This document shows positions 13,556-33,200 of a stretch of 64,000 bases of DNA, piece after piece. Where the stretch lies: NCBI RefSeq assembly GCF_963678835.1, contig NZ_OY787469.1:806001-870000 (forward strand). Direction: 5' to 3'. The translations under genes and the position numbers were made by a program. Below the pieces are notes generated by a model, which was not told the origin of the DNA, ran no database searches, and worked only from the letters and a program-made list of their open reading frames with translations. Position 1 is the first letter of the stretch; each line of letters starts with the position of its first letter. The DNA comes from an uncultured Desulfuromonas sp. (lineage in GTDB: Bacteria; Desulfobacterota; Desulfuromonadia; Desulfuromonadales; Desulfuromonadaceae).

Positions 13556-14719
13556 TTAAACCTCAGGATGCACGGGTGAGGGTGTCCTGGCCTGTTGCAT
13601 CAACAGCACCGACACCAGAGTGAGAACCGCCATAGCATAGAAAAATACCCCATATCCCAGGGTGCTGATCAGAACTCCGCCGAACAGCGGACCGACAAAA
13701 AAGCCAGCCATGACCATGGCCAGAAAGATATTCTGGTTGAGAGCCCGTTTTTCCGGCGCGGAGATGTCAAACAACACCGCACCCTGCAGGGGCATGGCAA
13801 CACCCCATCCCGCGCCCAGCACCACCGCCAAGCCTAAAAAAAGGCATTCTTGATGGAACTGTGGAATCAGGGCATAGCTGACCATGGCCGCCGCCATGCC
13901 GATCATGCTCATGGTCACCTTATCATAACGATCAAAAGCGCGTAACAGCAGCACGCGGATGAGGACCATGGCGGCGGAGGCTGCGCTGAAAAAGATGGCC
14001 GGATTTTTCAGATCCACGGAGGCACCGTAGGCGCGAATATAGTAGAAAATTGACGAATAGCCGCAGAACAGCAGCAGGGTCGACAGCTGCAGACACAACA
14101 CCGGTCTGGAACGGAAACTGTCGACGACGCTGCGTAATCCCGTGGCCTGATGCGCCACGGCAGCGGGGATTCTGCCCTTGGGCAGGAAGACCGCCAGCAC
14201 CGGCAAGAGTGACACCGCTGCGGCCAGATAGAGCACGGTTGTGAATTGACCCGGCTGCTGGACACCCAGATCAATAATCACCGGGATGACGGTATAGGGC
14301 AGCAAACGGATCAATGTAAAGACGCCGAACGCCTCGCCGCTGCGCCCTTCGGGGATAAACTGGATCAGCATCACGATGAGAGGCGCCTGGACAAACACCA
14401 GGCCGCAGCCCTGCACCAGGCGCAACAGTGAAAATTGCCACACCGTGCCGGCCTGTGCCATCAGCACCAGTGCCGTCGCATAGCATAACACGCCGAGCAC
14501 CAGCCAGCGACGGGCGTTTCCGTGGCTGACATAGGGGGCCAGCAGCAGTTGGAACACCAGCGAGGCCAGAGCATCAAAGCTCAGGATTATGCCGATGGCC
14601 TGGGTGCTTATGCCGAGGTAGCCCAGATACTCCGTAAAGGAAACAAAGCAGGCCATGGCGCTGATAAACGCGCCGAACAGTAGCGTGATGCTGATGAAAC
14701 CGCGATTATAAAGACGCAT
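13556..14719 (-). CDS. MFS transporter
   Basis: 387 residues, about 12 hydrophobic helices, with an MFS-type loop after helix 2 (YVSHGNARRWLVLGV) and a charged central loop around 185-205. Substrate unknown; the size and shape resemble drug or metabolite efflux carriers. It is the promoter-proximal gene of the partner-switching operon, one base from the phosphatase start, so transport and signalling may be linked. An AAGGAG lies upstream of the ATG. Confidence 0.85.
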   Translation of the reverse strand: MRLYNRGFISITLLFGAFISAMACFVSFTEYLGYLGISTQAIGIILSFDALASLVFQLLLAPYVSHGNARRWLVLGVLCYATALVLMAQAGTVWQFSLLRLVQGCGLVFVQAPLIVMLIQFIPEGRSGEAFGVFTLIRLLPYTVIPVIIDLGVQQPGQFTTVLYLAAAVSLLPVLAVFLPKGRIPAAVAHQATGLRSVVDSFRSRPVLCLQLSTLLLFCGYSSIFYYIRAYGASVDLKNPAIFFSAASAAMVLIRVLLLRAFDRYDKVTMSMIGMAAAMVSYALIPQFHQECLFLGLAVVLGAGWGVAMPLQGAVLFDISAPEKRALNQNIFLAMVMAGFFVGPLFGGVLISTLGYGVFFYAMAVLTLVSVLLMQQARTPSPVHPEV

Positions 14720-14927
14720 GATACTCCAAGGAGATGGATTCTGCGATGCCCCATCTTGTTAGGAATGCACAATAGTTGCGCCGGACCATGATTAATCTTG
14801 GTGCGTGAGTGGTGCGGCGGAGGTGCTTTTGTTTATGTTTCATCTGCTTTGAGCCTGGGCAAAAGGATGATAACGTGACATCGACGCTGTATGTGAGAGA
14901 ACAGAAACGGCTGTTTATCCTGGGCTT
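14720..14927. other. Divergent promoter region
   Basis: Non-coding stretch between the minus-strand MFS operon and the plus-strand HATPase/GNAT gene. It should hold the operon promoter; no clear operator or riboswitch is seen. Confidence 0.4.
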
Positions 14928-15029
14928 GTGTCAGCACGGCACGCCATAGTCCTTCTATGGCAACGACGTGTAACGCTCCTGACGCGAAAAAGACCCAAAA
15001 TAGTACCATGAAAGCTGATTGTGAACGCC
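14928..15029 (+). repeat. Dispersed intergenic repeat, copy A
   Basis: About 100 bp beginning gtgtcagca and ending near aaagctgattgtgaacgcc. An inverted-orientation relative lies at 19144-19256. The two share blocks such as gtgtcagca, tgtaacgct, ctgacgcg and acccaaaatagt. It may supply regulatory or recombination sites; no coding capacity. Confidence 0.7.
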
Positions 15030-15077
15030 GCCTAAGATGAGCCATTCATTAATACTGAAATTTTATGGAACTTCATT

Positions 15078-16589
15078 ATGACAAAATTATCAATAGGTTC
15101 GCGAGCTATTTTTCTCGCCAAACTGTCTCTTCCCGTATCACGCTCCATGGTGTCGGTCGCGGTAGGTTGTGCGGGTCAAGTGACCCAGGCCTTGCAACTG
15201 GATAAGACGTTTCGCAGTCAATTGGAGCTGGCTGTCGAAGAAGCTTTCAGCAATATCGTTGAACATTATTCCGTCACTCCCGGCGCCGATGATCGTATCC
15301 ACGTGGCTTTTGCCCTAAATGCAGATACGCTTGTTGTTTCCCTGACGGAAAAAGGCATGCCGTTTTCTCCGGAGGCCGGACCGCGCTATTCCTCTGAGCG
15401 ACTTGAAACCATGGAACGTTCGGGACTGGGAACTTTGCTGATGAGCCAGTGCGTGGATCATGTTGAGTTTCTGTTGCATGGGCGGCAGGGCAAAGAGACG
15501 CGACTGAGCAAGACGCTCCCGGATGTCACGATTCCGGAGGATTTACTGCCGCTAAAGCAATCGCACAAACCGCAGCGTTTAACTGTAGACGATTTTGAGA
15601 TTCATTGTCCAAAGGAACATGAATTAGCTGAAATCAGTCGTTTGGCCTGGAAGTGTTACGGCTATAGCCAGGAAGAGTTGCTCTATGATCTCGACCTGTT
15701 GAAAAAGAAGTTTCGCTGCGGCGAGTATCGTCCGGTTGTTGTTATTGATGCAACAACACGGGCCATGGTGATGCATAGCTGCCTGAAATATCACGATCCG
15801 AACAGTCACGTTCCCGAGTATGGATTGGCTTTTGCTGATCCTGCGTACCGGGTTCCACGTCAAGCCGTTCGCGCGATGGCTTCAAAAGCGTTCGAACTCG
15901 CGCGGGACAATGGGGCTGACGGTGTTTTTGATTGTTCCGTAACGACCCATACCGCATCGCAAAAAGGGATGCAGGTCTACTGTGGTTCCCAGCCTTGCAG
16001 CTTGTTTTTCGCGATTGCCGCAGCGGGAATGCAGGCCAGAGAGTTGTCCACCACGGTTCAGGAAAAGGGCTCGGGGATCAATCATTATTTCGCCTTTAAC
16101 CGCACTGTGAAACAGGTGTTTTGCCCGCCACGTCACCTTGACATCATGCGCCGTATCTATCAATGGCTTGAGCTGCCACGTGAATATTCGCAGCCACAAA
16201 CCTTTGCGCTGACAGGCGACGCCGAAACGGATGTGTTTGCGCTCCCCGACGAACTCAATGTCGTCTTTATCACGGTGCGCAAGATCGGCGAACAATCCGT
16301 GGAACAGATTGGCCAGGCGCTTCGAGATGCGCGCTTGAAACGCCGTCACGCCGTGTTTGTTTTTATCCCCCTCGGCATGCCTGCGGCACCGGTGCTTGTT
16401 GATCACTGTGAAAAGATGGGATTTTCTTTCGCCGGGTTGATGCCGCATATCCATGACGGTGATGACCGGATTCTGATGCAGTATGTGGATTGTCCCGTGA
16501 ATCTGGACGCCATTCGGGTTTATGGGGACCATTCGCGTCAATTGTTTGATTATGTGGTGCGCGAGTTAAAAGAGGTTAGTGGGCCTTAG
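15078..16589 (+). CDS. HATPase/GNAT-like partner-switch protein (intact paralogue)
   Basis: 503 residues. Residues about 10-150 form an anti-sigma-type HATPase domain (QLELAVEEAFSNIVEHY is the N-box; RSGLGTLLMSQCVDHVEF the G-box region). Residues about 170-330 resemble an acetyltransferase fold (ISRLAWKCYGYSQEELLYD, then FADPAYRVPRQAVRAMASKA). A third domain (about 340-500) repeats a GNAT-like half (VDHCEKMGFSFAGLMPHI). It is the full-length paralogue of the damaged gene at 9266-10783 and divergent from that operon, so it may supply the kinase/anti-sigma function the operon has lost. No strong Shine-Dalgarno sequence is seen before the ATG. Confidence 0.78.
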   Translation: MTKLSIGSRAIFLAKLSLPVSRSMVSVAVGCAGQVTQALQLDKTFRSQLELAVEEAFSNIVEHYSVTPGADDRIHVAFALNADTLVVSLTEKGMPFSPEAGPRYSSERLETMERSGLGTLLMSQCVDHVEFLLHGRQGKETRLSKTLPDVTIPEDLLPLKQSHKPQRLTVDDFEIHCPKEHELAEISRLAWKCYGYSQEELLYDLDLLKKKFRCGEYRPVVVIDATTRAMVMHSCLKYHDPNSHVPEYGLAFADPAYRVPRQAVRAMASKAFELARDNGADGVFDCSVTTHTASQKGMQVYCGSQPCSLFFAIAAAGMQARELSTTVQEKGSGINHYFAFNRTVKQVFCPPRHLDIMRRIYQWLELPREYSQPQTFALTGDAETDVFALPDELNVVFITVRKIGEQSVEQIGQALRDARLKRRHAVFVFIPLGMPAAPVLVDHCEKMGFSFAGLMPHIHDGDDRILMQYVDCPVNLDAIRVYGDHSRQLFDYVVRELKEVSGP

Positions 16590-16689
16590 GTGTTGCCGCA
16601 CTTATCCAGCACTTCCACATGGATCGGGCAAAATCAGGATCAGATAACGCTTTGGGTAGATATTTAGCAGGAATTTTCGTCTTGTCGAC

Positions 16690-16772
16690 AACATCAAGCA
16701 CTTAAACCCAGTCCTTGATGTTGAGCGGCTCTCCATGGGCTCCACAGGTCGTTTTTCAGTCGTCTGCTAGAG
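16690..16772. repeat. Intergenic repeat pair, copy 1
   Basis: Shares an arrangement with 45478-45562: atcaag...cttgat stem region, then ccatgggctcca and ctgctagagc. It lies at the 3' side of the CBS gene and runs into its last codons. A short stem (atcaag/cttgat) can form. Confidence 0.55.
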
Positions 16773-17201
16773 CGCGTCCGGCTCGCTGTGGGCGAGCAGA
16801 TCAACCACGGTGATATCGGCGAGGATGTGTCCCTCGTCATCGACCACGGCCAGTTCTTTGACCCCCGTCTTGGCCATCCGTTTGAGAATGGTGTCCACGC
16901 TCTCCTCAGGTGACGCCTTAATATTGCCGTGGCTCATCAGGTCGGCGGCTTTTTTGACACTGAGCCGCCGCAGGATGTCGCGCGAATGGATCTTGTCGTC
17001 GTAGTGATACGGGTAGAGAAAGCGTAGCAGCGCACCGATGGTGATTGCGCCGAGCAGCCTGTTGTAGTCATCCGTTACATAGACCAGCCGTGAATGGGGG
17101 AAGCGTACCGCCACCTCAACCACCTCGCTGATGGGACAGCGTGCTTGGACGCAGGGTATGTCTCGATCCCTGATGCGCTGCATGATCTCGCTAATCTTCA
17201 T
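16767..17201 (-). CDS. CBS-domain pair protein
   Basis: 144 residues from the ATG at 17201, preceded by GGAGGG; the longer frame start is less likely. Two CBS motifs: about 1-65 (IPCVQARCPISEVVEVAVRF, LVYVTDDYNRLLGAITIG) and about 85-140 (ASPEESVDTILKRMAKTGVK, LAVVDDEGHILADITVVDLL). CBS pairs sense adenine nucleotides or related ligands. The gene overlaps the antiporter 3' end by 11 bp, so it probably regulates that transporter in trans. Confidence 0.88.
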   Translation of the reverse strand: MKISEIMQRIRDRDIPCVQARCPISEVVEVAVRFPHSRLVYVTDDYNRLLGAITIGALLRFLYPYHYDDKIHSRDILRRLSVKKAADLMSHGNIKASPEESVDTILKRMAKTGVKELAVVDDEGHILADITVVDLLAHSEPDAL

Positions 17202-18426
17202 CCGTTCCCTCCACATTTGTTTCACCGGCATTACTGATCGCCCACTTCACCAGAGGCGGCGAAATCATTTCGTTAAGGATGATCGACACCAGGGTAGCGC
17301 TGAGCAGCATGTCGAAAATCTCTGTCGGTAAAATCGGTTCTGCTAAAAATATCAGCCCCAGCGACAAACCAGCCTGCGGCAATAATGCCAGCCCCAGATT
17401 GCGATAAATCTGCGGTGACGCATGGGCGATCTTGCCACCCACCAGAGTGCCGGCCAGTTTACCGACAAACCGTCCCAGCAGGATGATGATTCCCAGCACG
17501 GCCGAGGTTGTAAATACTTTCAGGTCAAAATGGGCCGCAGCCAGAGTGAAGAACAGGCAGAAAATGGTCTCCTCCATGATGTCCATCTGATGGAACAGAT
17601 CGTCGGCATGTTTCACCCGGTTGATGATAACAAAGCCCATGGTCATATTGGCCAGCAGCGGTGAAAAACCGAGGTGGGTGGAGATGCCGCTGATCAGGAA
17701 AATAGCACCCAGCGTGAGCATCAGGCTACTTTCAGGACGCTTAGACGGTTGAAAAAAATGCCCAAACACCAGCCCGCCAAGGCCTCCCACCAGCAATGAG
17801 CCGACAATGGTCAGGATGCCTTGCAAGATCAGGTGGTTGCCTGCATTGCTCAGCAACAGTTGTCCGGCAATGGTGATCGATGCTGAGAACAAAATAATAC
17901 TCAAAGCGTCATCCAAGGCGACGACTCCCAGCAGAGTTGTTGTCAATGGGCCGCTGGCGCGCAGCTCATGCATGACGGCCATGGTTGCGGCCGGAGCCGT
18001 GGCCACGGATATACCGCCGAGGATGAGAACCACCGATAAAAAGATCGCATCGGTTTCATGCAGTAACGGCGAAAGCAGTGGCTGGCAGATATAAACCGCA
18101 GCACAGGTGCAGACAAACGCCCCGGTCCCCTCCGACAGGTTGATCCAGACAATCTCCTTGCCAAGATCGCGAATACGTGAGATGCGCAGACTGCCGCCGA
18201 TGGCGTAGGCGATAAACGCCAGAGCCAGTTCCGAGGTGAACAAAAACAGGTGACTGATTTGTTGATACGGGATGATGCCGGTGATCGAAGGGGAAAAAAG
18301 CAAACCGACAACAATGTAACCGCTGATACGCGGCAGGCGCAGACGGTTGGCAGCCTTGCCGGAAAAATAACCGGTAACGAGAATCAGACCGAGAATGGTC
18401 AGTGGTTGCAGCGCGGGAAACAGCAT
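17191..18426 (-). CDS. CPA2-type cation:proton antiporter
   Basis: 411 residues from the ATG at 18426 (GAGGG upstream). About 12 membrane helices with the pattern of Na+/H+ exchanger proteins of the KefB/GerN type: a first-helix motif RLRLPRISGYIVVGLL, a GVVALDDALSIILF segment that holds the paired acidic residues of the ion site, and a GRFVGKLAGTLVGGK loop. There is no C-terminal RCK/TrkA-N domain; instead a separate CBS protein is encoded, overlapping by 11 bp. Ion specificity (Na+ or K+) cannot be decided from sequence alone. Confidence 0.87.
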   Translation of the reverse strand: MLFPALQPLTILGLILVTGYFSGKAANRLRLPRISGYIVVGLLFSPSITGIIPYQQISHLFLFTSELALAFIAYAIGGSLRISRIRDLGKEIVWINLSEGTGAFVCTCAAVYICQPLLSPLLHETDAIFLSVVLILGGISVATAPAATMAVMHELRASGPLTTTLLGVVALDDALSIILFSASITIAGQLLLSNAGNHLILQGILTIVGSLLVGGLGGLVFGHFFQPSKRPESSLMLTLGAIFLISGISTHLGFSPLLANMTMGFVIINRVKHADDLFHQMDIMEETIFCLFFTLAAAHFDLKVFTTSAVLGIIILLGRFVGKLAGTLVGGKIAHASPQIYRNLGLALLPQAGLSLGLIFLAEPILPTEIFDMLLSATLVSIILNEMISPPLVKWAISNAGETNVEGTDED

Positions 18427-18612
18427 ACATCCCTCACAGAGCAAAGGCTGCCCATGGTGTTAAATCCTTTTACCGTGGGCTTCTCAAACAGTATGCCAGA
18501 TATTTCAGGATGCGCAGAGCGTGTCGGTGTGTTGATTATAATGCGCCACTTTCTCTCCAAAGTGCGCTATTCTGCGGTGGAATCCTTTCAGATGAAACAA
18601 GGAGGTCTTATA

Positions 18613-18963
18613 ATGGAAAACGACAACCAACCCAAAAACAGCGCACACCCTCTTTACATGCTGTTGCATAGTGAAGAGATTGAAGAGTTTAATACGCAGC
18701 GTGAGATCCATGATGATTTCAGCGTGTTAAAAGGGCTGGATTTCCGTGGTCTTGACCTGCGCGGTGCCGAGTTGAACGGCTTTGATCTGTCCGACGGCTA
18801 CTTTCGCCAGACCGATCTGCGTGGTCTGGATTTGCGCACTTGCAACCTGCAGGGAGCGAGCCTGCGTTCCGCCAAGATCTCCGGCACCTACTTTCCAGAC
18901 GAACTGTCCCCGGATGAGATTCTTATGTCGCTCAATCACGGCACGCGGTTGCGTTATCGTTAG
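18613..18963 (+). CDS. Pentapeptide-repeat protein
   Basis: 116 residues from the ATG at 18613; GGAGG lies 7 nt before it, which decides against longer upstream frames. After a 40-residue helical head there are about eight A(D/N)LXX-type repeats (LDFRGLDLRGAELNGFDLSD, then LRGLDLRTCNLQGASLRSAK), expected to form a right-handed quadrilateral beta helix, ending LNHGTRLRYR. Function unknown. A deleted copy of this gene lies at 25250-25333. Confidence 0.82.
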   Translation: MENDNQPKNSAHPLYMLLHSEEIEEFNTQREIHDDFSVLKGLDFRGLDLRGAELNGFDLSDGYFRQTDLRGLDLRTCNLQGASLRSAKISGTYFPDELSPDEILMSLNHGTRLRYR

Positions 18964-18969
18964 GGGCGT

Positions 18970-19139
18970 TGTTGCTCTCGAGTTCCGCTGCCTCTTGCCC
19001 TTCCGGCCAGAGCCTGAAGAAGATCCAGCAACGTGACCAGCCAGCGGATTTCGCCCTATTCGTCAACGACAAACATCCTCTGCACGCCTGATTCGCGAAA
19101 CTGTTCCAGCCGTTTCATCTCGGTCAGCGATTCCAGGCC
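18970..19139 (-). pseudogene. CorC/HlyC CBS-domain remnant
   Basis: Complement-strand translation gives LESLTEMKRLEQFRESGVQ, then RMFVVDE, a TAG, and GEIRWLVTLLDLLQALAG. This aligns with the second CBS motif of the CorC-type protein at 43988-45316 (SLTGMKLLQRFQTSGVQ, FVVDEYGAILGLITLQDLF). The TAG replaces the tyrosine of VDEYG. No other part of the gene is present, so this is a short relic. Confidence 0.7.
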
Positions 19140-19143
19140 ACCA

Positions 19144-19256
19144 GGGGGCGTTCTGAATCAGCTTTCATGGCACTATTTTGGGTTTTTTCCGCGTCAGCAG
19201 CGTTACATGCCGTTGTCATAGAATAACGATGACGCCTCCATGTGCCTTGCTGACAC
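19144..19256 (-). repeat. Dispersed intergenic repeat, copy B
   Basis: Inverted-orientation relative of 14928-15029, ending in tgctgacac on the plus strand. It directly follows the CorC relic and precedes the protease cluster. Confidence 0.7.
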
Positions 19257-19276
19257 GAAAAATCCCTCAAAATAGT

Positions 19277-19313
19277 GTTCATTCTTCCCATTGAGAACAC
19301 CCCCCTAGCGGCA
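19277..19313. repeat. Hairpin repeat gtgttc/gagaacac, copy 1
   Basis: gtgttcattcttcccattgag followed by aacacccccc. The same hairpin type (gttctcat...attgagaac flanked by a C/G run) recurs at 25358-25402, so the protease-to-cyclase cluster is bracketed by two copies. Confidence 0.45.
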
Positions 19314-19401
19314 GAAAGTTTTTTTTTCATTTGTTTTTTTAGAGTTTGATTCTAAGTTAGATTAGATAGTTTTCGAATAACCCTGTTGATCGGAGATGAA
19401 A

Positions 19402-20670
19402 ATGGGTCATGAACGCTGCAATGATCGTGTAAGCCGGAAACGGAATTCCTCCCCGCCTTCCTCGTGTGACGGTATCCGTTTGCCGCTTTACAAGGGTCCG
19501 TTCCAGAACAACGGCGCATCCCCTTGGTATCTGGAGTTGCCGGTCGGTACGCCCAAAGAAGGAACAACGCCGCAGCGGCTGAAGTTTTCCCTGGATACGG
19601 GCAGCAACTTCGTCTGGGTGACCTCGACCCTGTGCGGTGCGCAGGGTTGCCAACATTATGGTGACAAGCAGTTCAACTACGATGACTCGTCCAGTTTTCA
19701 TTGGTGTTCGCAACAAACGATACCTGTCGATTTCGGCCCCTGGGGCACCATGCAGGTTGAGACCGGCCAGGATGTGCTGGCCCTGGATCAGCAGACGGCA
19801 ACGACCAGCGAGATCTATCTGGCCGAAGCGTACAACGGCGATCAGTTCGCGGAGCTCGACTGGGACGGCGGCATCGGTGTGCCGAGCAGTTATTCCACGG
19901 AACTGCATGCGACCAGTCGCACCTTTATTCGCGGAATCCGGCGGAGCCTGACGCAGGGCGCCAACGAAAAATGCGCCGACGCGGATTTTGCGTTTTTTCA
20001 GAACCTGATGAATCAGGGACGCGTCAGTCCCGACCAGCCGTTTCTTGCCTTTGACACCGATCCGCAAACCAAAACGGGGACGGTTGCGCTGGGGGCGCTC
20101 GATTCGGCTTATCAGGACAGCCTGGAATACCTGTATCTGCCGTTCACCGTTTATCCGACCATCACCTATGTCTGGGCCTCAGCGCTGAAATCGCTTCGCG
20201 TGGGCGAGAAAACGTTGGCGACTGATATGTATTTCTGCCTCGATACCGGCTCGTCGCAATTCAAAGGCGATGTCGGCGTCATGCAGGAAGCCTTTGCACT
20301 GACCGACGGTAAACAGAGCAACCCGCTGGTGACCATCGAACTGGCGCAGCAAGGGGACGATAAGCCGGGCACGCTGGTGATTCCCGCCGAAGTTTACAAG
20401 GTGGAAATCGAAGCGGGCGACAAAAGCGGGCAAATTATCAGTCAATTCGAGCCGATGGCCGGGGTGGACAAGCTGATCCTGGCGGGTTCCGTGCTGCTGG
20501 ATTACCTCTACACAGTCTACGAGTACGAGGTCGCTTCGGATGCGGATGGCCGCTATCGACTCACGGCTAAGGGGATGTGGCTGTTCAACAAGAAGAACGG
20601 GTTGAAGATCATTCAAAACACGCAAAGCCAACCGGCGCGGATTTTCGCCGGTGTCGCGGAGGGGGACTGA
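19402..20670 (+). CDS. Pepsin-family (A1) aspartic protease, bacterial
   Basis: 422 residues from the ATG at 19402, 6 nt after GGAG (the ATG at 19396 abuts the GGAG). Two active-site motifs in separate lobes, LDTGSNFVWV (Asp about 65) and CLDTGSSQFKG (Asp about 281), with about 216 residues between them, the layout of two-lobed pepsins. ASPWYLELPVGTP before the first motif matches the pepsin substrate-strand entry. The flap segment reads PVDFGPWGTM, with Phe where pepsin has Tyr75. No signal peptide or propeptide is evident, so it is probably cytoplasmic like the few known bacterial pepsins (shewasin type). Several cysteines are present. Its stop overlaps the start of the avidin-like gene (TGATG). 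Substrate unknown. Confidence 0.88.
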   Translation: MGHERCNDRVSRKRNSSPPSSCDGIRLPLYKGPFQNNGASPWYLELPVGTPKEGTTPQRLKFSLDTGSNFVWVTSTLCGAQGCQHYGDKQFNYDDSSSFHWCSQQTIPVDFGPWGTMQVETGQDVLALDQQTATTSEIYLAEAYNGDQFAELDWDGGIGVPSSYSTELHATSRTFIRGIRRSLTQGANEKCADADFAFFQNLMNQGRVSPDQPFLAFDTDPQTKTGTVALGALDSAYQDSLEYLYLPFTVYPTITYVWASALKSLRVGEKTLATDMYFCLDTGSSQFKGDVGVMQEAFALTDGKQSNPLVTIELAQQGDDKPGTLVIPAEVYKVEIEAGDKSGQIISQFEPMAGVDKLILAGSVLLDYLYTVYEYEVASDADGRYRLTAKGMWLFNKKNGLKIIQNTQSQPARIFAGVAEGD

Positions 20671-21452
20671 TGGCTGTAGACCTGAACGGGCGCTGGGAAA
20701 ACAATTTCGGCTCTTTTCTCAATCTCAAGGTGGATGCTCAGGGTGTTATCACCGGCGTTTACGGTTCGGACACCGGTTCTTCCGGCACCTATTATCTGGT
20801 CGGTGCCGCCGGGCTGAACGCACCTACCGAGCAGGCTGGACGGAATCTGGCCGTCTCGGTGTTCTGGCATCCGATTGACGGCACAAAAAGCGATCCCTCC
20901 TGGCATTGGGTCACCACGCAATGCGGCCAGTTGCAGATCGACGGCACCATCAGCCTGTTTCAATCGTTGGTGGCAACCACCGATTTTCCCGGTTTGGCGG
21001 GAATCGGCAATTATCTTGAAAAATTGACCTGCAGCAGAACCGACAAAGGGCCGACCACGCCTATCCCCGCAGCGCCGTCTCCCGACGATCCGCAACAGGA
21101 GGATCTGCTCAACGGCCAGTGGCAGGCGAGCTACGGCGGACCGGGATTGTCGCTGTCGGTAAAAAAATCCGATTACGGCTGGCTGTGCGGTCGTTTGAGT
21201 CTCGACGACGAAGCTATCCTGATGCGCGGGTTTGCCGATATTCATGCTGATGACACGATGTTGCGGGGCGTCACTCTGTGCGGTTATTCCAGTGCTCGCG
21301 GGGCGGCGATCGCGCTCAACGGCAGTCTCGATCCCTCCACCGGTCGGCTTACCCTGAGTCGTTGGTTTGCTCTTTCGACATCGAGCGCCGATGGCTATGT
21401 GCAGACCGATCTGGGAAGTTGGGTCTTTGAGCCTGACACAACAGAGCGTTAA
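20670..21452 (+). CDS. Avidin-like protein with second barrel-like domain
   Basis: 260 residues; the ATG shares its A with the protease TGA, so translation is coupled. Residues 5-121 match the avidin/streptavidin barrel: LNGRWENNFGSFLNLKVDA, then GVITGVYGSDTGSSGTYYL. By eye, N11, S15, Y31, S33 and N114 correspond to the streptavidin polar biotin contacts N23, S27, Y43, S45 and D128 (Asn118 in avidin), while the stacking tryptophans W79, W108 and W120 are not evident. W66 may match avidin W70. A Pro-rich linker (128-145) leads to a second beta-rich domain starting LLNGQWQASYGGPGL, plausibly a diverged repeat. No signal peptide. Ligand may be biotin, a biotinylated protein, or something else. 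Confidence 0.8.
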   Translation: MAVDLNGRWENNFGSFLNLKVDAQGVITGVYGSDTGSSGTYYLVGAAGLNAPTEQAGRNLAVSVFWHPIDGTKSDPSWHWVTTQCGQLQIDGTISLFQSLVATTDFPGLAGIGNYLEKLTCSRTDKGPTTPIPAAPSPDDPQQEDLLNGQWQASYGGPGLSLSVKKSDYGWLCGRLSLDDEAILMRGFADIHADDTMLRGVTLCGYSSARGAAIALNGSLDPSTGRLTLSRWFALSTSSADGYVQTDLGSWVFEPDTTER

Positions 21453-21478
21453 AAATTCTCCAATCCGGGAAAGCCACT

Positions 21479-24274
21479 ATGGACTTCAGTGCCGCCTTTG
21501 AACAGGTCAAACACGACGATATGATTTTGCAGAGCTTTATGCATCTCTGGCAATATTCGGCCGACCTGATGTTTATCATGGCGGTCGAGGAGAATGGCGA
21601 GTTTACCCTCTACGACAACAACCCGGCATCAAGGGCTGTGTGCGGTATTGCCGAGGATGCAAATATCCATCGCCTGAATCTTCGCAACATCTGGGACGAC
21701 GAGGTGGTTGAAGGGCTTTATGAAAGCTATCGCAGGGCGATTGCGGCGCGCAAACCGATCACCATCGAGCAGGAAGCGATCGATCCCGACGGCGCAACTG
21801 TTTATGTCAGCACCCTGCTGGTACCTCTGTTCGACGCGCAGGGCGAACCGAAACTGATCTGCGGGGTATCCCGTAATATTACCGACATAAAAAATGCCGA
21901 AAAACTGGCCGTGCGCGCGCAGGGTGAACTGACGCAATCGAACACGGCCTTGCAGCAGATCAACCGCGAGCTGGACGAGCAGGTCGAAATCCGCACCGCG
22001 GAGTTGAGGGCGTCCAAACTCAAGGCTGAAGAAGCGACCCGGGCCAAATCCGATTTTCTCGCCAAGATGAGCCATGAAATCCGCACACCGATGAATGCGG
22101 TGATCGGTTTGACACGACTGGCGTTAAAGACCGACCTTGACCGTCGGCAGAAGGACTATCTCGATAAGGTTCTGGATGCCGCCGAAGGGCTGTTGGTCCT
22201 GATTAATGACATCCTCGATTTTTCCAAAATCGAAGCTGGAAAATTCACCATCGAACAAAAACCTTTCCGTTTGGAACACGTGGTCGGCAAAGCGGTCAGC
22301 CTTTGTGCCATGAATATTTACAACAAGGGGTTGGAGCTGGTCACTGATATTGCTGCGGAGATTCCGGCGCAGTTGCAGGGGGATGAACTCAGGATTCGCC
22401 AGGTTCTGGTGAACCTGTTGAATAATGCGGCGAAATTCACCGACGAGGGTGACGTCTGCCTGAAAATTCGCGTAGGTGAAGAGACGCCGCAGCAGATTCG
22501 CCTGCTTTGCTCCGTTATCGACACCGGTATCGGCTTGAGCCGTGAGCAGCAGGAGAAAATCTTCGGCTCCTTTACCCAGGCCGACGAATCCGTCACCCGC
22601 AAATACGGTGGTACCGGGCTGGGACTGGCAATTTCAAAACAGCTTTGCGAATTAATGGACGGAGAGATCTGGCTGGAAAGTGAGTTGGGAAAAGGCACCA
22701 GTTTTCACTTTACCCTGCAGCTCGATAAACTCCCGACTCAGGCGGCAGAGCAGAAGAGAGAGGAATGCACGCTGGCTGGGCTTAACGTGCTGGTGGTCGA
22801 TGACAGCGACATGGCACGAAACGTTCTGGTCAGGATGCTGCACGATTATGGGATCAAAACTGCTGAGGCGAGTAACGGGGCCGATGCTGTTGCAATCGTC
22901 AACCAGGAGCAACAGGACGGAGTTCTCTTTGACCTTGTCCTGCTCGACGGATGCATGCCCGGTATGAACGGCATCGAGACGGCCGTCATGATCCATCAGG
23001 CCAAGCAGGAAAAAGCGCCGCAAATCCTGATGGTCTCCGCCTATGATCGGGATGAGGTTCTCGGACGGCTCGATGAAAAAATCGTCGGACAGGTGTTGGA
23101 AAAACCGGTTAGCTCATCGACCCTGTTGGATGTGCTCAAACGGGCCGTGACCGGAGTCGATGCACCGGAGGCTTATTCCGCTGGCCGCTATTCTGAAGCC
23201 GACGAACGGGCAAGCGCCCCGGATTTGTCCGCATCACGTATTCTGCTGGTAGACGACGGCCCTATCAATCGTCAGATCGCCCTTGGTTTTTTGCGGGACA
23301 CCGGGGCCATTGTGGAGACGGCGAACAACGGCTTGCGGGCGTTGGAAAAACTGGCGCAAACCGACTACGATCTGGTGCTGATGGATATTCAGATGCCCGA
23401 GATGGACGGTCTGACGGCTGTTCGGCAAATACGAACCCGGTTGGGAAAGCCCGAATTGCCGGTGATCGCCATGACCGCGCAGGCCATGGCCGAAGATGTC
23501 GATGCAAGCCTTCAGGCCGGCATGAACGAACATCTGACCAAGCCGATTGTCCCGGAAACCTTGTACCGTGTCCTGGCAAAATACCTGCCGGAGCAACCGC
23601 GACCGATTCGTGCCGAAGTCGCGCCGGAAGAGCCCTTCGACGAGGAAATATCGTCTTCCACCGGCCCGGTGCGCACCCTCGAACAGCTGGAAACGGTTGC
23701 GGGAATCGATAGCGTTGTTGGTATCGGCACCCTCGGCAATGAGGAACTTTACCTGCCGGTCGTCAATGCTTTTATTGAGAAGTATCAGGGATTTGCCGAG
23801 AAGTGTAACGCCTGGTTCGAGGCCTCGGATTGGCAGATGCTGCAGTGCGAAAGTCATTCCCTGAAGTCGAATGCCGCCTATATCGGTGCACCGGAACTCT
23901 CTGTGTTGGGGGAAACCCTGGAGAAAAAGTTTGCAAGCGGTGTTATCGACGGCGATCTAGTGTTCGAGGTCTGTAGGAAATTATCCGATTTGCTGGCACA
24001 ATTCGATCTCAGCGAGAAAAAAGAACAGCCGGTCGATTCACCGGTCTTTTCCAACGAACGGCTGGCGAGCGATTTGGCCACGATCCTGCCGTTACTCGAA
24101 CGTTCCGATTTTGCCGTAGAGGATATTTTGCCGCCTTTGCAGCGGTTATGCGCCAATACGCCTTATGCCGAGGCTGTCGAGCGGATCATTGACGATGTGA
24201 ATGAGCTGGAATACGAGCGAGCCGCCGTTTTTGCGGCCGGTTTGCTGGATAAACTGTCACCGGCGGAAAAGTGA
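21479..24274 (+). CDS. Cytoplasmic hybrid histidine kinase (PAS-HisKA-HATPase-REC-REC-HPt)
   Basis: 931 residues without membrane helices. PAS-like sensor (about 20-140), coiled coil (about 150-190), HisKA with FLAKMSHEIRTPMNAVIG (His about 198), HATPase_c (N-box LLNNAAKFTDEGDV, G-boxes DTGIGLS and GGTGLGLAISKQL), receiver 1 (VVDDSD, LLDGCMPGMNG, Asp about 489), receiver 2 (LVDDGPIN, LMDIQMPEMDG, Asp about 635), and an HPt domain (CESHSLKSNAAYIG, His about 792). This is a complete phosphorelay in one chain. It starts 26 bp after the avidin-like gene, and its 3' end overlaps the cyclase gene by 4 bp, so it probably feeds phosphate to that receiver. Confidence 0.9.
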   Translation: MDFSAAFEQVKHDDMILQSFMHLWQYSADLMFIMAVEENGEFTLYDNNPASRAVCGIAEDANIHRLNLRNIWDDEVVEGLYESYRRAIAARKPITIEQEAIDPDGATVYVSTLLVPLFDAQGEPKLICGVSRNITDIKNAEKLAVRAQGELTQSNTALQQINRELDEQVEIRTAELRASKLKAEEATRAKSDFLAKMSHEIRTPMNAVIGLTRLALKTDLDRRQKDYLDKVLDAAEGLLVLINDILDFSKIEAGKFTIEQKPFRLEHVVGKAVSLCAMNIYNKGLELVTDIAAEIPAQLQGDELRIRQVLVNLLNNAAKFTDEGDVCLKIRVGEETPQQIRLLCSVIDTGIGLSREQQEKIFGSFTQADESVTRKYGGTGLGLAISKQLCELMDGEIWLESELGKGTSFHFTLQLDKLPTQAAEQKREECTLAGLNVLVVDDSDMARNVLVRMLHDYGIKTAEASNGADAVAIVNQEQQDGVLFDLVLLDGCMPGMNGIETAVMIHQAKQEKAPQILMVSAYDRDEVLGRLDEKIVGQVLEKPVSSSTLLDVLKRAVTGVDAPEAYSAGRYSEADERASAPDLSASRILLVDDGPINRQIALGFLRDTGAIVETANNGLRALEKLAQTDYDLVLMDIQMPEMDGLTAVRQIRTRLGKPELPVIAMTAQAMAEDVDASLQAGMNEHLTKPIVPETLYRVLAKYLPEQPRPIRAEVAPEEPFDEEISSSTGPVRTLEQLETVAGIDSVVGIGTLGNEELYLPVVNAFIEKYQGFAEKCNAWFEASDWQMLQCESHSLKSNAAYIGAPELSVLGETLEKKFASGVIDGDLVFEVCRKLSDLLAQFDLSEKKEQPVDSPVFSNERLASDLATILPLLERSDFAVEDILPPLQRLCANTPYAEAVERIIDDVNELEYERAAVFAAGLLDKLSPAEK

Positions 24275-25200
24275 TTTCCCGTATGTGTATGGATCAGCAA
24301 CAGAAAATACTCATTGTTGACGATGAAAAGGTCAACCTGCGGATATTGCGCGATATTCTGCAAGCTGAGGCCGCTGTGATTCTGGCCAAGGACGGTGCTC
24401 AGGCCATCAGGAAGGCAACTCAATTTCACCCCGATTTGATTCTACTGGACGTGATGATGCCCGACCGTAGCGGCTTCGAGGTGCTCGGCGAATTGAAAAG
24501 CGATGCGGCCACCGGTCGGATACCTGTAATTTTTGTAACCGCCTTGTCCGACGTGGAGAACGAAAAAAAAGGGTTGAAGTTGGGTGCCTGCGACTATATC
24601 TACAAACCCTTCGATGCCGAAATCGTCAAGGCCCGCATCGATCTGCATCTGCAGCTGGTCAGACAGAGGAAAATGCTGGAAGAATTGGCGAATATTGATG
24701 CCCTGACCTCCATCGCCAACCGGCGCAAATACGAAGAGGTGTTCGAAATGGAATGGCGGATCGCCCTTCGTTCAGGCAAATCGCTATCAGTCGTGATGGT
24801 CGATATCGACTGTTTTAAACAGTTTAACGACCTGTACGGCCATGCGGCCGGGGATGCCGCATTGAAACAGGTGGCCCGGACGCTCTCCGCAAACTTGAAA
24901 CGACCGGGAGATTTTGTTGCCCGTTACGGTGGCGAGGAGTTTGTCGTGCTGCTCCCCGACACCGGTCTCGACGGGAGTCTGCACATCATGCAAACCTGTC
25001 GTCAGGCCATTGAAGCGCTGCGGATCGAACACGGTAACAGCAACGCGGCTCCGGTTTTGACCATTAGCGCCGGCGCGTATACGCTGGTGCCTAAAGAGCA
25101 GGACGACCGTCAGGCGGTGCTGAAACGGGCCGACGATATGCTTTACCGAGCCAAACAGCAGGGAAAGAATACCATTATCTGCAGCTGTGCCGAGGGATGA
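24271..25200 (+). CDS. Response regulator diguanylate cyclase (REC-GGDEF)
   Basis: 309 residues from a GTG overlapping the kinase stop (GTGA); ATGs at 24282 and 24288 are alternatives. Receiver domain with DDEKVN, LLDVMMPDRSGFEVL and a conserved Lys (YKPFD), then a GGDEF domain with the active motif GGEEF and an RPGD inhibitory site five residues before it. Such proteins make c-di-GMP when phosphorylated and are feedback-inhibited at RxxD. It is the output of the kinase encoded upstream. Confidence 0.92.
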   Translation: MISRMCMDQQQKILIVDDEKVNLRILRDILQAEAAVILAKDGAQAIRKATQFHPDLILLDVMMPDRSGFEVLGELKSDAATGRIPVIFVTALSDVENEKKGLKLGACDYIYKPFDAEIVKARIDLHLQLVRQRKMLEELANIDALTSIANRRKYEEVFEMEWRIALRSGKSLSVVMVDIDCFKQFNDLYGHAAGDAALKQVARTLSANLKRPGDFVARYGGEEFVVLLPDTGLDGSLHIMQTCRQAIEALRIEHGNSNAAPVLTISAGAYTLVPKEQDDRQAVLKRADDMLYRAKQQGKNTIICSCAEG

Positions 25201-25249
25201 TTGTCAACCTGGATTCTCCGAGTTAAATATACTGTCCCTGGAACTCTTA

Positions 25250-25333
25250 ACCAACCCAAAAACTCCAGACGAACTGTCCCCGGATGAGATTCTTATGTCG
25301 CTGAATCATGGTACACGGCTGCGCTACCGTTAA
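25250..25333 (+). pseudogene. Pentapeptide-protein relic with internal deletion
   Basis: ccaacccaaaaac (matching codons 5-9 of the gene at 18613) is fused directly to ccagacgaactgtccccgg and the end of that gene (PDELSPDEILMSLNHGTRLR, then YR and stop). About 250 bp of the parent are missing. It shows that the 18.6-kb locus was once duplicated to this side of the protease cluster. Confidence 0.7.
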
Positions 25334-25357
25334 GGGGACATTTGAATCTCGGTGAGA

Positions 25358-25402
25358 TTAGGGGGGGCGTTCTCATCCTTCAAATTGAGAACGGTCCCCC
25401 TA
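25358..25402. terminator. Strong G/C-tract hairpin after the cyclase gene
   Basis: gggggggcgttctca / tgagaacggtccccc can pair almost fully over 12 or more bp. It lies between the plus-strand cyclase and the minus-strand PEP-CTERM gene; likely a transcription terminator and also a repeat related to 19277-19313. Confidence 0.5.
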
Positions 25403-25440
25403 CAGATTTGACTTATCTGAAAGAGAAAAGGTCCTGAAAT

Positions 25441-26148
25441 TTAGGCTGTGAAACGCTGTTGCTTCTTTTTTAGCGCGATAACCCCAATCAATCCAAAGCA
25501 CATAAAGGCAAATGTTGAAGGTTCGGGAACAACAGCACTTTGTTCTTCAACAAACCCTGAGTAATTTACATATGCCTGAGAATAATTATAAAAGCCGAAT
25601 TGCCCGGCATTAAAATCCCCTGCAATGTCAAAAACGGTTTCGTCGTCAATTGATATGATGGTACGTGCTGCGGAATAGTCGAGAGAAAATTCGTAACTTT
25701 GGCGGTCTCGCCATCCCAATGTAGAAGAGTATGAGCTGGCCAGGATTTCAAGATCGTTACCTGTATGCCCCCACAGGTTAATGTCAGAACCCGTGATTCG
25801 AGAAAGGGTGAAGCCTTCTCGCGCTGAGCTCTGATTGTTTTGTTTCCAGTCAAAAAGGAGATAGTTATCTGAGCCATTAAAGCCAAAAACAAAGCCGATG
25901 AAATCGTCATCGCTTGTTGTCTTTACAGTAAATGTCCCTTCAATCAAGCGATTAAAATAATCAGTGTCACTGACAAAATAAGTGGGTTGTCCATTGATGG
26001 TCTGCAGAACACTGTAGCCATCGTTGCTCACATTCCAGTTACCTCCTGAAGAGGCGGTCCAATTTTGTAAATTCATCGCCAGGCCAAATGCCATGGAGGG
26101 CAAAGAAAAGATGATGGCGACAAGGGGTAAAAGCATGATTTTTCGCAT
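25441..26148 (-). CDS. PEP-CTERM exported protein, thrombospondin C-terminal-like
   Basis: 235 residues. N-terminal signal peptide (hydrophobic about 4-20, AFG region). The middle (SDDDFIGFVFGFNGSDNYLL, FDWKQNNQSS) resembles the lectin-like thrombospondin C-terminal domain. The C-terminus has the PEP-CTERM sorting signal: VPEPSTFAFMCFGL, a hydrophobic helix, and a KKKQQR basic tail. Family knowledge: such proteins are processed by exosortase and go to the cell surface with exopolysaccharide. No exosortase gene is in the window. Confidence 0.87.
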   Translation of the reverse strand: MRKIMLLPLVAIIFSLPSMAFGLAMNLQNWTASSGGNWNVSNDGYSVLQTINGQPTYFVSDTDYFNRLIEGTFTVKTTSDDDFIGFVFGFNGSDNYLLFDWKQNNQSSAREGFTLSRITGSDINLWGHTGNDLEILASSYSSTLGWRDRQSYEFSLDYSAARTIISIDDETVFDIAGDFNAGQFGFYNYSQAYVNYSGFVEEQSAVVPEPSTFAFMCFGLIGVIALKKKQQRFTA

Positions 26149-26218
26149 TTTTAATCTCGTTTCAAAAAGAAGGTTAATACGTAAAGCTAGTACGTCAGCC
26201 TATTTGAATTTATCTATT

Positions 26219-26297
26219 GTAGGAGCGGCTTCAGCCGCGAATTCCCATCATGAAAAGGATCAATGACCAGAAAATTCGCGAATAAATTCGCTCCTAC
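26219..26297 (-). repeat. REPIN-like palindrome, copy 1
   Basis: 79 bp bounded by GTAGGAGCG at each end in inverted orientation. One arm contains the hairpin GCGGCTTCAGCCGC, the other GCGAATTTATTCGC. Each is a REP-type unit (GTAG followed by a palindrome). It shares extra flank (gtcatcgaa, gctgacgtac) with copy 3, so the repeated unit is about 140 bp there. It sits between the two PEP-CTERM genes. Confidence 0.8.
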
Positions 26298-26337
26298 AGG
26301 TGGTCGCTTCGATGACAAAATTGAGTGTGTTCGAGTA

Positions 26338-26952
26338 CTAGCAACTGCCAGTATTTTTAGCCTTTTTAAAGGCAACCAACCCTAAAAATCCAATGCCGAG
26401 CAGGATCATGGTAGCCGGCTCAGGCACCGGTTGAGTTGTGGATTCAGCCATTGTTCCCGTCAACGACCAGGAAAGCAGATCTGTTCCATCTCCAGGCCAG
26501 TAGGTATCCAAAAACACAAGTGTCCATTCTCCCGCAAGATCCAAACCGTTGAAAACCGAAAGGGACTCCAGTGCCTGAAAGCTTCCTTCAGCATTTACCG
26601 ATGTGAAGTCATAGGAAATCTGAGTTGAGGCAGCATCGTCAAAAACAACATCAAAAATGCCTTCAAAAAAATTAATCCCACCAGATGGCGCGAGAGAAAC
26701 GCTGATTCCGTTGTGTTCAAGCCAGATGCTTACGTCTTTCCAAAACGTTTCTCCAGAATCTGCATCCCCGAGTTTAACCTGAACGTTAAGGTCCGTGATT
26801 GAACCATTCAACCCTGAAGTAAGGGAGACGGAGGTTGCCGGATAGGTGTCGATGTTCTTGGCAGCGTCGCCATAGAGAGTAAATGACATGGCCCCGGCTG
26901 TCGTTGCCGTCAAGCCCAGTAACACAATGCAGGTGGCAAAAAAAGTTTTCAT
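26338..26952 (-). CDS. PEP-CTERM exported protein with P-domain-like fold
   Basis: 204 residues: signal peptide (1-21, TTAGA), a domain resembling the proprotein convertase P-domain (VQVKLGDADSGETFWKDVSI, then LAGEWTLVFLDTYWPGDGTD and LLSWSLTG), and a PEP-CTERM tail (VPEPATMILLGIGFLGLVAF followed by KKAKN). Likely surface protein in the same exosortase pathway as its neighbour. P-domains usually accompany proteases or act as adhesive modules; here it stands alone. Confidence 0.87.
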   Translation of the reverse strand: MKTFFATCIVLLGLTATTAGAMSFTLYGDAAKNIDTYPATSVSLTSGLNGSITDLNVQVKLGDADSGETFWKDVSIWLEHNGISVSLAPSGGINFFEGIFDVVFDDAASTQISYDFTSVNAEGSFQALESLSVFNGLDLAGEWTLVFLDTYWPGDGTDLLSWSLTGTMAESTTQPVPEPATMILLGIGFLGLVAFKKAKNTGSC

Positions 26953-27281
26953 GGCTTTTCCTTTCTCGAGCCAGTAAGCATGAAATTTAAATCTAAAAAT
27001 GACTTTGAGTACAGCGCGATGTTTTTTACAAAAAACAGACTTTACATAAATGCAGACTAACTGTAAATATAAAATTAATATAAGTGAATATTTTTATAGT
27101 GGAAATTTCAGTAAAAACAGGGTGTTGAAGGCTAGATAAATTTTATGAAAGGTTAAAATCTTTAAAGTCTAATCCTCTCTATGCTTTTGCACATGAATAA
27201 ATTTTATTGACAGCGGCAAAAACGAGCTGCTAGCCTTCGAGGACATTTTGACTTAAAAATGTTTTCATCAAGGAGGCGGAT
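26953..27281. other. AT-rich intergenic upstream of rhs
   Basis: 329 bp, strongly AT-rich compared with both neighbours, holding the divergent promoters of the P-domain gene and the rhs gene. An AAGGAGGCGG lies just before the rhs ATG. No structured RNA recognised. Confidence 0.5.
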
Positions 27282-30200
27282 ATGCCCGTTTTGCGCTATT
27301 TTCTCTGTACGGCTCTTTTGGTTTTAATCTTTTCAGCTCAGGTCCTTGCCATTGACTGCTCGACAGTTGGCGGGATTTCAAACCTCGGTATAGAATACGT
27401 TCCTGATACCTGTCCGCCATACGGAGACAACGAAGTCGCCCACTTCATTGACACAATGCTGACATGTAGTGGTGGCAAGGTAACTCTTTATGCTCATTAC
27501 GGAGATACGATGGCTACACCGGCCCGCATTGCCGCCTATGCCGCCTCCAATAACTATCGTGTGATGTGGAACAAGGACAACGGCCATATTGTCGTAGTAC
27601 ATCGCTATTTTCGCGGCACTATTGACGGTGTGGCCATGACGAGTGTCCCCGCTGGAACCATCAATACCGAAGGCTTTAATCAAATTTTCACGCCAAATGC
27701 TTTTCCCGATGCGGATGGCAATGGCAATCCTGATTGCGCAGACAGTGGAGACGCTCCGGAAATTGAAAAAGAACCAGAGCCGGTCATCGGTGCGTGTGAA
27801 GTCGGTAATAGGTCTTTCGGTTCTCAAGTCAATGTTGCCAGCGGCAATCTCTCTTTGACACAACCCCTGTTTTCCGAAGCAGAAACCGGATTGCCCGGAG
27901 GGCTTTACTTTAGCTGGAATAGTTTGGGGAATGGTTGGCAGTTGAATCAGGATGTCCATTACGAACCCACCTGGGCTCCTGCTCCCGGCATCGCGTATAC
28001 CTGTACTCAAAGTGTTTCGAGTTGGACTGCCATCTTGAGCAGTGATAAGAATAACGACAATGGTGTCGTTTATCCGGTTAAGTGGACTGAAACCGGAACG
28101 GATTTTACGGTCGGCAGTTGCTCCATTGACGATGCTCCCTATATTCGCGTTCGTCAGGCCGATGGCGGCTACCTGTATTTTTCCGACACGTCAAGCGGCA
28201 GCGATCTTGCTTCGGTCAACGGCTCGTATGCCACTTGGTCGAACGAAGATCACAGCGTTACCTATCGTAACGGCACGCAATTGACCTTTAATGACGATGG
28301 GAAGATTCTCGAGCGCCGTGACCGTAACGGTCTTGTTGCCCAGTACAGTTATACCGACGATAAGCTGCAAAGCATCACCGACCGCTTCGGTCGTACCACC
28401 GTGTTCAGTCATGATGGCGATGGGCACATCACCACCATCACCGCTCCGGACAGCCGTAGCGTCAGCTTGACCTACAGTGACGGGCTGATCGCTTCAATAA
28501 CCACCAGCGATGGGCGAGCCTGGAGTTATACCTACAGTGATGGCCGCCTGACGCAAATCAGCGATCCCGCCGGGAACGAAAAAAGTTATGCTTACGACAG
28601 CAGCGGTCGCGTTGTGCAGGGCACCACCCCGGACGGCACCCGCACCATCAGCTACGATGACACCGCCAACGAGAGTGTTATTACCGACCGCGACGGCAGC
28701 CAGACCCTCCACGGCTATGACGCCGATCAACGTACGCCGCTCTACACCATTGATCCCCAGGGTGGAGAAACCCTTTACACGTACAACAGTCGCAACCAGT
28801 TGATTTCCACCAGCGACCAGGAATTGCGCACCCGCACCTCCACCTACAACACCCAAGGCGATCTGCTCACCGAAACCGATGCCGCCGGCATGACCACCAG
28901 CTACACCTACAACAGCAACGGCGATGTGACTGCCATCACCGATGCTGAGGGTAACACCACTCAGATCGCCTACGATGCCAACGGCAATCCCGTAACCGTC
29001 ATCCTGGCCAACGGCCTGCAGATTATCAACACCTACAACAGCCTCGGTCAACTCGTCAGTCGCCAGGATGTCAACGGCGGTGTGACCGGCTATACCTACG
29101 ATGCGAACGGTTTTCCCGCCCAAGTCATCACCCCCGACGGCAGCATCACCACCTACAGTTTTGACATTGGCGGTCGCCTGCTTAGCGAAACCGATGCCGG
29201 CGGATACGTTACCAGTTACACCTATGACAATGCCGGTCGCCTGGCTGGCAAAACCACGCCCGGCGGCGACACCACCAGCTACGGCTACAACGTTTTGGGA
29301 CACCTCACCAGCGTCCTTCACCCCGACGGAACCACGACCTGTCTGACCTATGACCACGCCGGTCGTCTGCTCAGCCTTACCGACGGCGCCGGGCGGAGTA
29401 CACAGTATCAATACAACAACCTCGGTCAGAGAACCGTCAGTACCGACGGCAACAGCAACAGCACCGACTACACCAGCAACTTCATGGACCAGCTCACCCG
29501 CATCACCGACCCGCTCGGCACGGTTACCGACCTGGTGTATCAGGACGATGGTCTCAGCCTGGCCGAGGTGATCGACGGTCGCGGCAACAGCCTGACCTAC
29601 AGTTACGATAGTGCCGGGCGCCTTATCCAAACCAACCAACACGGCGTCATCACCAGCTATACCTATAACAGCCTGGGGCAACTGGCGACACGCACCGACG
29701 CCCGTGGCATCGTCACCGAATACAGTTACGACAGCCTCGGTCGTTTGACCCAGCTTCATTTTCCAGCCGACAGCAGTCAGGATGTTCTTTACGGCTACGA
29801 TGCCGGTACCTGGGGTGGTGGCCAGCTGACCAGCATGCAAGATGCCGGTGGCAGCCACAGCTACGCTTACGACAGTCTGGGGCGTCTCGTCAGTCACACC
29901 TATACGTTGCAAAACACGGCTTACACCACCGACTATAGCTACGATACCACCGGCAACCTGGTCACTCTCAGTTATCCCGGTGGGTTTGCTGTGACAACCA
30001 GCTATGACGGCAACCATCGTCCCTTGAGCATACAGGCTGAGCTGGGCGACCAAACCCTGGATATCCTGACCCAGATCAGCTACGACACCAATGGCCGCCC
30101 CGTCCAATGGCAACATGGCAACGGTTTGCTCACCAGCGCCGGCTACGATGGCGGCGGTTTGCTGCAAAGTCTGACCCTGTCTTCGCATCTGGCGGAAGCA

Positions 30201-31763: not shown

Positions 31764-31936
31764 AGAATATTTTTTTGAGAACATTCGCTGCACTGTTGGG
31801 AGTTTTTCTGGTTGTTGCAGGAATATGGAAATTCTTTGACCCAGTCTATGGCAGCCTTGTGGAGAAAGGGAGCTGTGTCTCGGCGTTATTATTTGGAGTA
31901 ATTTTTTTGAGGTTCTCTATTGCCGGTTTCCGGTAG
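31760..31936 (+). CDS. Small membrane protein, candidate Rhs immunity protein
   Basis: 58 residues from an ATG overlapping the rhs stop (ATGA). Two hydrophobic segments (TFAALLGVFLVVAGIW and VSALLFGVIFLRFSIAGF). The overlap and position are typical of rhs immunity genes. A membrane location would fit a tip toxin that acts on the inner membrane; this is inference. I do not recognise the family. Confidence 0.6.
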   Translation: MKNIFLRTFAALLGVFLVVAGIWKFFDPVYGSLVEKGSCVSALLFGVIFLRFSIAGFR

Positions 31937-31987
31937 ATACAGTTACAAATTTGTATCCTGTTGACAGCGAGTGTGTGGAAACAGAGT

Positions 31988-32201
31988 GAAAGCGGCGGCA
32001 GCACCATCGCCACCCCGTACCAGGCCCACACCGATCAGATCGGCCACCGATTCTGCTCACCGACGCCACAGGCACGGCCGTCTGGTCCGCACAGTATGCC
32101 CCGTTCGGTCAGGCCACAATCAACAGCGATGTCGACGATGACGGCACTGAGGTCGTGCGCAACCTGCGCTTCCCCGGCCAGTACTTTGACGCGGAATCCG
32201 G
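31988..32201 (+). pseudogene. Displaced rhs core fragment
   Basis: Close DNA match to 31071-31284 of the intact gene (from agcggcggcagcaccatcgc to tttgacgcggaatccgg) with a small deletion (gatcggccaccg versus gattggcgctccggtgctg) that breaks the frame. It is cut at 32202 by a MITE-like element. It probably represents an older rhs tip pushed downstream when the present tip was acquired. Confidence 0.85.
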
Positions 32202-33100: not shown

Positions 33101-33176
33101 TTAAGGCGTCGCATTTGCGAGATCTCAAAATCATCTATCAATAGTCGAAATAAGAAAGGTCGGGGCCGCAGAATCC

Positions 33177-33200
33177 GCAATAGCAATAGCAATAGCAATA
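33177..33200 (+). repeat. Hexanucleotide microsatellite (gcaata)4
   Basis: Four perfect copies of gcaata followed by gcggcgg, in the non-coding flank of the intact ISL3 copy. Only this copy has it. Confidence 0.85.

Follow-up and report, generated by a model that had tools for sequence, protein, structure and literature searches.

The subject of this study is a cluster of four genes in a 64,000-nucleotide stretch of the genome of an uncultured Desulfuromonas sp. (contig NZ_OY787469.1, positions 806,001 to 870,000), hereafter the window; G000 denotes the window's own genome, and the other G and L numbers denote the genomes and loci compared. The open reading frames of the stretch include four tightly packed, consecutive frames on the plus strand between positions 19402 and 25200. 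They encode an A1 pepsin-family aspartic protease (19402 to 20670, with a further in-frame ATG at 19396), a tandem avidin-like protein (20670 to 21452), a soluble hybrid histidine kinase with the order PAS-HisKA-HATPase-REC-REC-HPt (21479 to 24274; REC, receiver; HPt, histidine phosphotransfer) and a REC-GGDEF diguanylate cyclase (24283 to 25200, or 24271 to 25200 if the alternative GTG start is used). Pfam matches confirm the four protein families, which a sequence-only reading of the window had assigned, and the junctions that it described are borne out as well: TGATG at 20668, a gap of 26 bp and GTGA at 24271. Judging by where homologues begin, the cyclase more likely starts at the ATG at 24283, which would leave a gap of 8 bp after the kinase gene. 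A simple hydropathy scan, in which a transporter served as the positive control, showed no membrane or signal segment in any of the four products, so that all four look cytoplasmic, as had been proposed. No Rfam element was detected within 14500-33500 and no tRNA anywhere in the window, and neither promoter-like sites (6 versus 3.7 in shuffles) nor terminator-like sites (7 versus 9.1) were informative.

The A1 family membership of the protease rests on its match to PF00026 (Asp, 5.5e-20). It aligns with porcine pepsin at 1.3e-9 and has no match in NCBIfam. The catalytic residues D67 and D283, each with the glycine two residues on, are invariant in 15 of 15 pepsins, both DTG motifs being legible. 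The rarity claimed for this family in bacteria holds in the phylum sample, where PF00026 was found in one of 395 genomes, the window's own; the window pepsin itself occurs in two of 118 relatives, its own genome and the congener G002.

The avidin-like protein has 260 residues and matches PF01382 over residues 5-78 (2.4e-6; 28.3 bits, the cut-off being 24). Its family profile matches a streptavidin chain among the PDB profiles at 1.3e-8, and NCBIfam gives only a sub-threshold streptavidin match (18.1 of 300 bits). The protein is predicted to contain two avidin-like domains, at about residues 1-124 and 148-257. Searched by itself, domain 2 gave no Pfam or PDB profile match that convinces (Avidin at 0.14 in 1 of 17), so its assignment rests on the hhalign comparison of the two domains (probability 93.4, E 2.5e-7, 109 columns) and on the controls, which gave a maximum of 3.5 in 60 column shuffles, 0.15 with a reversed profile and 0.4 with 20 pepsin slices. 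In domain 1, the equivalents of streptavidin N23, S27, Y43, S45 and W79, which we take to form the ureido pocket, are invariant in 19 of 19 avidins, as is a tryptophan near W92, and an acidic residue lies near the D128 equivalent in all 19 rows; the equivalences of W92, W108 and D128 are our reading of the alignment. Domain 2 appears degenerate in the alignments and is missing the set of pocket residues. Domain 1 shares its sequence pattern and ureido-pocket residues with streptavidin, whereas W108 and W120 do not appear to be conserved in our alignment, the protein is tandem and a signal peptide is absent. The window's genome holds one avidin of this type. The predicted tandem architecture is new here, as are the flap substitution of the pepsin and the mobility and selection of the cassette described below.

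The kinase shows the Pfam order PAS, HisKA, HATPase, two Response_reg domains and Hpt, with legible phosphorylation sites at the HisKA histidine (MSHEIRTP), the receiver aspartate (LMDIQMP) and the HPt histidine (HSLKS). Its N-terminal PAS region is common to other cassettes: among the matches listed from 58 relatives (E <= 1e-60, at most 15 candidates scored per genome), the alignment begins at residue 1 only for the kinases of the window and of G002, and at residue 113 or later for the others. The kinases of three further genomes, G909, G1224 and G1196, also match from residue 1, those of G909 and G1224 having one receiver fewer, and 13 plasmid records give weak PAS matches to this N terminus. 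The cyclase combines Response_reg with GGDEF (2e-48); its motifs RYGGEEF and LLDVMMP provide the GG[DE]EF signature and the receiver aspartate, and it should make cyclic di-GMP. In domain order and phosphosites the two proteins resemble the BarA-type kinases and PleD/DgcR-type cyclases of NCBIfam, but their scores lie far under the cut-offs (490.7 of 890 and 245.2 of 474), they are soluble and the PAS region is of the cassette type.

The same four genes, complete and in the same order, are present in G000, in G002 and in two Pseudomonadota, G909 and G1224; judging by the make-up of the genome samples, these two belong to a phylum other than the window's. Protein identities between the window and G909/G1224 are 46/47% for the pepsin, 35/33% for the avidin, 44/44% for the kinase and 47/47% for the cyclase, and the genes are separated by gaps of 37 and 37 in G909 and of 15 and 22 in G1224, followed in both by an overlap. 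The avidin profile matched six of 398 Pseudomonadota genomes, namely three Pseudomonas-type fusions (including the query's own), G909, the divergent fusion of G793 and the weak G902; a search of 234 genomes in the order to which G909 belongs gave five, namely G909, G641 (a Pseudomonas), G1224, G1196 and the weak G1205. The weak rows G017 (4.2e-4, with three TGA inside), G902 (2.9e-4) and G1205 (2.4e-4) were excluded as relatives. The avidins of the four-gene loci cluster at 93/96, just below the tool's mark of 95. The recurrence in Pseudomonadota is more than chance, and the order repeated in G002, G909 and G1224 supports the earlier suggestion that the genes form a coupled unit; the neighbourhood is conserved, though only G002 among the 118 relatives shares the pepsin.

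Pepsin and avidin are tied still more closely in Pseudomonas. Of 249 genomes of the genus, 12 gave a match to a two-domain avidin profile, the genome of the query among them. Because the two parts form one protein in 10 of these, in a single open frame of 636-718 residues, we regard them as tied; in the remaining two the avidin stands alone. Laitinen et al. 2021 (PMC8033661) have reported such fusions in P. fluorescens, P. veronii and others, with a C-terminal extension described as somewhat conserved and without a recognised domain. Therefore, of the novelty that the sequence-only reading had claimed, the pepsin-avidin link was already published as a fusion and the operon was not found reported. 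The main text of PMC8033661 contains the word "operon" 0 times, and our literature search found no report of the four-gene operon, or of an avidin with a kinase and a cyclase; it found nothing on avidin with hydantoinase, and the literature on biotin catabolism and on avidin fusion and function gave no operon. In PMC8033661, the Extended/beta6 avidins include fusions with an A1 peptidase N-terminal to the avidin, and the Extended group carries C-terminal extensions of about 150 residues. The second domain supplies an extension of that length here and is recognised as avidin-like, whereas pepsin and avidin are separate genes joined at the TGATG junction, in an operon with the kinase and the cyclase.

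The block shared with G002 (19302 to 25216, plus strand) is 96.6% identical over 5.9 kb, against 88.0, 89.0, 92.3 and 93.7% in the collinear flanks, and it lies at a different genomic place there with all four genes open. Between the two copies, the ratio of non-synonymous to synonymous substitution rates is 0.15 for the pepsin, 0.32 for the avidin (on 12 nucleotide changes only), 0.30 for the kinase and 0.17 for the cyclase, which is consistent with purifying selection on all four genes. The insert in the window is bordered by two copies of a 73-bp repeat, one at 18894 to 18966 in the 3' end of a pentapeptide gene and the other, identical at 65 of 73 positions, at 25264 to 25336. G008 has an empty site with a single copy of this stretch, and the corresponding site of G002 is also without the cassette, which there lies about 10 kb further on. 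Judged by these comparisons, the cassette is a mobile unit of 5.9 kb, and the block has no room for an integrase gene beside the four genes. Directly upstream of the cassette is a hairpin element resembling a miniature inverted-repeat transposable element (19141 to 19306; fold z -5.7), which is missing at the cassette edge in G002 and has related copies at 14928-15033 in the window and at L023 4071-4176 in G002. A fragment at 19001 to 19141 (plus strand), left of the cassette in the window, is 87% similar to sequence right of the cassette in G002.

Carriage by phages or plasmids was considered and rejected. No relative of the pepsin or avidin was found in viral_contigs, none of the window avidin or the L026 pepsin in phages, and none in PHROGs; plasmids held no relative of the window pepsin, the G909 pepsin or the pepsin part of the L026 fusion, and relatives of the avidin only in Novosphingobium. 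No repeats were found at L008 9500-17500. A HATPase_c_2 protein is encoded at 15078-16589, upstream of the insertion site. On the other side, a long gene with RHS/YD-type repeats, recognised by eye, occupies 27282-31763; a further tail fragment lies at 31974-32201, and tails matching this gene occur several times in G002 and G008. Inverted repeats of 34-38 nt with the pattern AAACTAGGGACACTCCC are found at 32200-33100.

As the best explanation of the whole, we tentatively propose a mobile four-gene signalling cassette, in which a pepsin-avidin unit feeds a kinase-cyclase pair with cyclic di-GMP as output. The gene order, its conservation, the fusion and the conserved catalytic and pocket residues, on which this proposal builds, are directly observed. 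The pepsin and the tandem avidin would act as one cytosolic binding-and-cutting unit, as their single polypeptide in Pseudomonas suggests. The most likely ligand of domain 1 is biotin or another cyclic urea, either free or linked to protein, and domain 2 is probably structural. On binding, the pepsin would be presented with the ligand or with a biotinylated protein, or would change in activity. The soluble PAS hybrid kinase would sense this, or else a metabolic signal connected with it, and would send phosphate via REC and HPt to the REC-GGDEF protein, so that cyclic di-GMP rises. The ligand, the substrate, the direction of control and the pairing of HPt with REC are what we infer. A narrower version, a cytosolic biotin-status switch in which the avidin-pepsin pair gauges biotin, either free or on protein, and sets cyclic di-GMP through a kinase and cyclase of its own, is possible but doubtful. 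By analogy, shewasin D (PMC4814920) and RimB (PMC11957791) would serve as precedents for the mechanism. Shewasins A and D belong to the A1 family and have no signal peptide, shewasin D being mainly cytoplasmic, but they have no link to avidin ("avidin" occurs 0 times in the accessible text of PMC4814920). In RimABK of Pseudomonas fluorescens, an aspartic protease that reads protein modification is co-transcribed with a cyclic di-GMP enzyme; RimB is retropepsin-like and the enzyme is a phosphodiesterase, so that the likeness is one of analogy only (PMC11957791).

Several observations weigh against this proposal. The flap tyrosine, presumably Tyr75 of pepsin, corresponds to a phenylalanine within the family motif FGPWGT in 15 of 15 pepsins, the position being equated through the alignment of the window and porcine pepsins; protease activity is therefore uncertain, and the substitution lowers the claim of ordinary pepsin activity. 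All 19 avidins have Q, N or H in the column that likely corresponds to W108, and W120 is not alignable; since we take both tryptophans to lie at the biotin site of streptavidin, biotin binding may be weak or absent. Both shewasins were reported to be active at acid pH (PMC4814920). The pepsin tree, which includes G793 on a long branch, resolves neither a four-gene group nor the relations among the window pair, the G909-G1224 pair and the Pseudomonas group. The two halves of the cassette can also part. In G1196 the kinase and cyclase are intact, the avidin gene is broken by stops (L068, about 9955-10370) and no pepsin match was found. Around the 12 Pseudomonas genes no cassette kinase or cyclase was found, the only kinase-domain match (27%) lying about 9 kb off in L041. 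Instead, 10 of the 12 adjoin genes for hydantoinases A and B (HyuA, HyuB), a racemase, a porin-like protein and a major facilitator superfamily (MFS) transporter, identified by Pfam matches of representatives, with a LuxR-type regulator in nine of the 10; this cluster stands beside pepsin-avidin or avidin at L044 63-10626 and at nine other Pseudomonas loci. At L042 and L046 (G749 and G703) the fusion occurs without it. The kinase and cyclase are therefore not required partners of pepsin-avidin and form one of several contexts; the different neighbours suggest that pepsin-avidin is a movable unit placed beside different regulators.

Unlikely, in our estimation, is a biotin-guided protease, whose avidin domains would dock on biotinylated carboxylases or on biotinyl peptides so that the pepsin can cleave these, either to turn them over or to salvage biotin, the kinase and cyclase being merely co-regulated neighbours. 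The fusion of binder and protease and the invariant ureido-pocket residues would suit such an enzyme, whereas the apparent lack of W108 and W120 would not, and the conservation of the kinase and cyclase in distant genomes would be left unexplained. Natural avidins, moreover, release biotin slowly. That an aspartic protease of bacteria can read a modification on a protein is shown by RimB (PMC11957791).

We also think it unlikely that the unit belongs to a nutrient module, in which a compound resembling hydantoin or a lactam is presented or sensed by the avidin, degraded by hydantoinases in Pseudomonas and sensed by the kinase in the window organism. Hydantoin is similar to the ureido ring that avidins bind, and the Pseudomonas clusters described above argue for such a module, as do both Novosphingobium loci, where the avidin is accompanied by a LuxR-type regulator, a racemase, HyuA and HyuB. 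On the other hand, Hydantoinase_B (E <= 1e-10) was not detected in five of the eight genomes checked with the unit or its remnant, namely G749, G703, G909, G1224 and G1196; in G000 it is on another contig, and G002 and G793 have theirs elsewhere. Three plasmid clusters of hydantoinase and racemase, taken from 15 listed rows of the 323 records that match a racemase, show no avidin annotation, in a gene table that is incomplete.

A secreted factor for defence or competition, that is, a biotin-sequestering protease directed against other organisms, is improbable. It would match the defence role suggested in PMC8033661, where defence GO-terms (Gene Ontology terms) were noted near some avidin genes. 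The divergent pepsin-avidin fusion of G793 (L059 8300-13269), which is followed by an 892-residue AAA-TPR protein, does carry an N-terminal hydrophobic segment of signal-peptide type; it has no Pfam match at 1e-3 and is a relative by tblastn (pepsin 28%, 9e-35). However, by hydropathy such a segment is missing from the four window proteins, from the three tested of G909 and from the L026 fusion, the co-encoded kinase is soluble, and no PADLOC model matches the pepsin, avidin or fusion; the kinase matches five PADLOC families and the cyclase one, probably via shared domains. Still less credible is a pepsin fold that acts as a scaffold for binding peptides and is almost or wholly inactive as a protease, a reading that the phenylalanine in the flap would favour and the invariant catalytic residues would not. 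That the four genes are chance neighbours without functional link, as might arise if a mobile unit gathered unrelated genes, is strongly disfavoured and rejected, because their order is kept in distant genomes at 33-47% identity and pepsin and avidin are fused.

The conserved operon turns the question of what bacterial avidins and pepsins do into direct tests of binding, cleavage, phosphotransfer and messenger level. The cassette yields a natural, predicted tandem avidin, and Pseudomonas yields an aspartic protease that carries a ligand-binding domain in the same chain. If the biotin-status switch is true, it would place a bacterial avidin, and likewise a bacterial A1 pepsin, in a physiological circuit for a first time.

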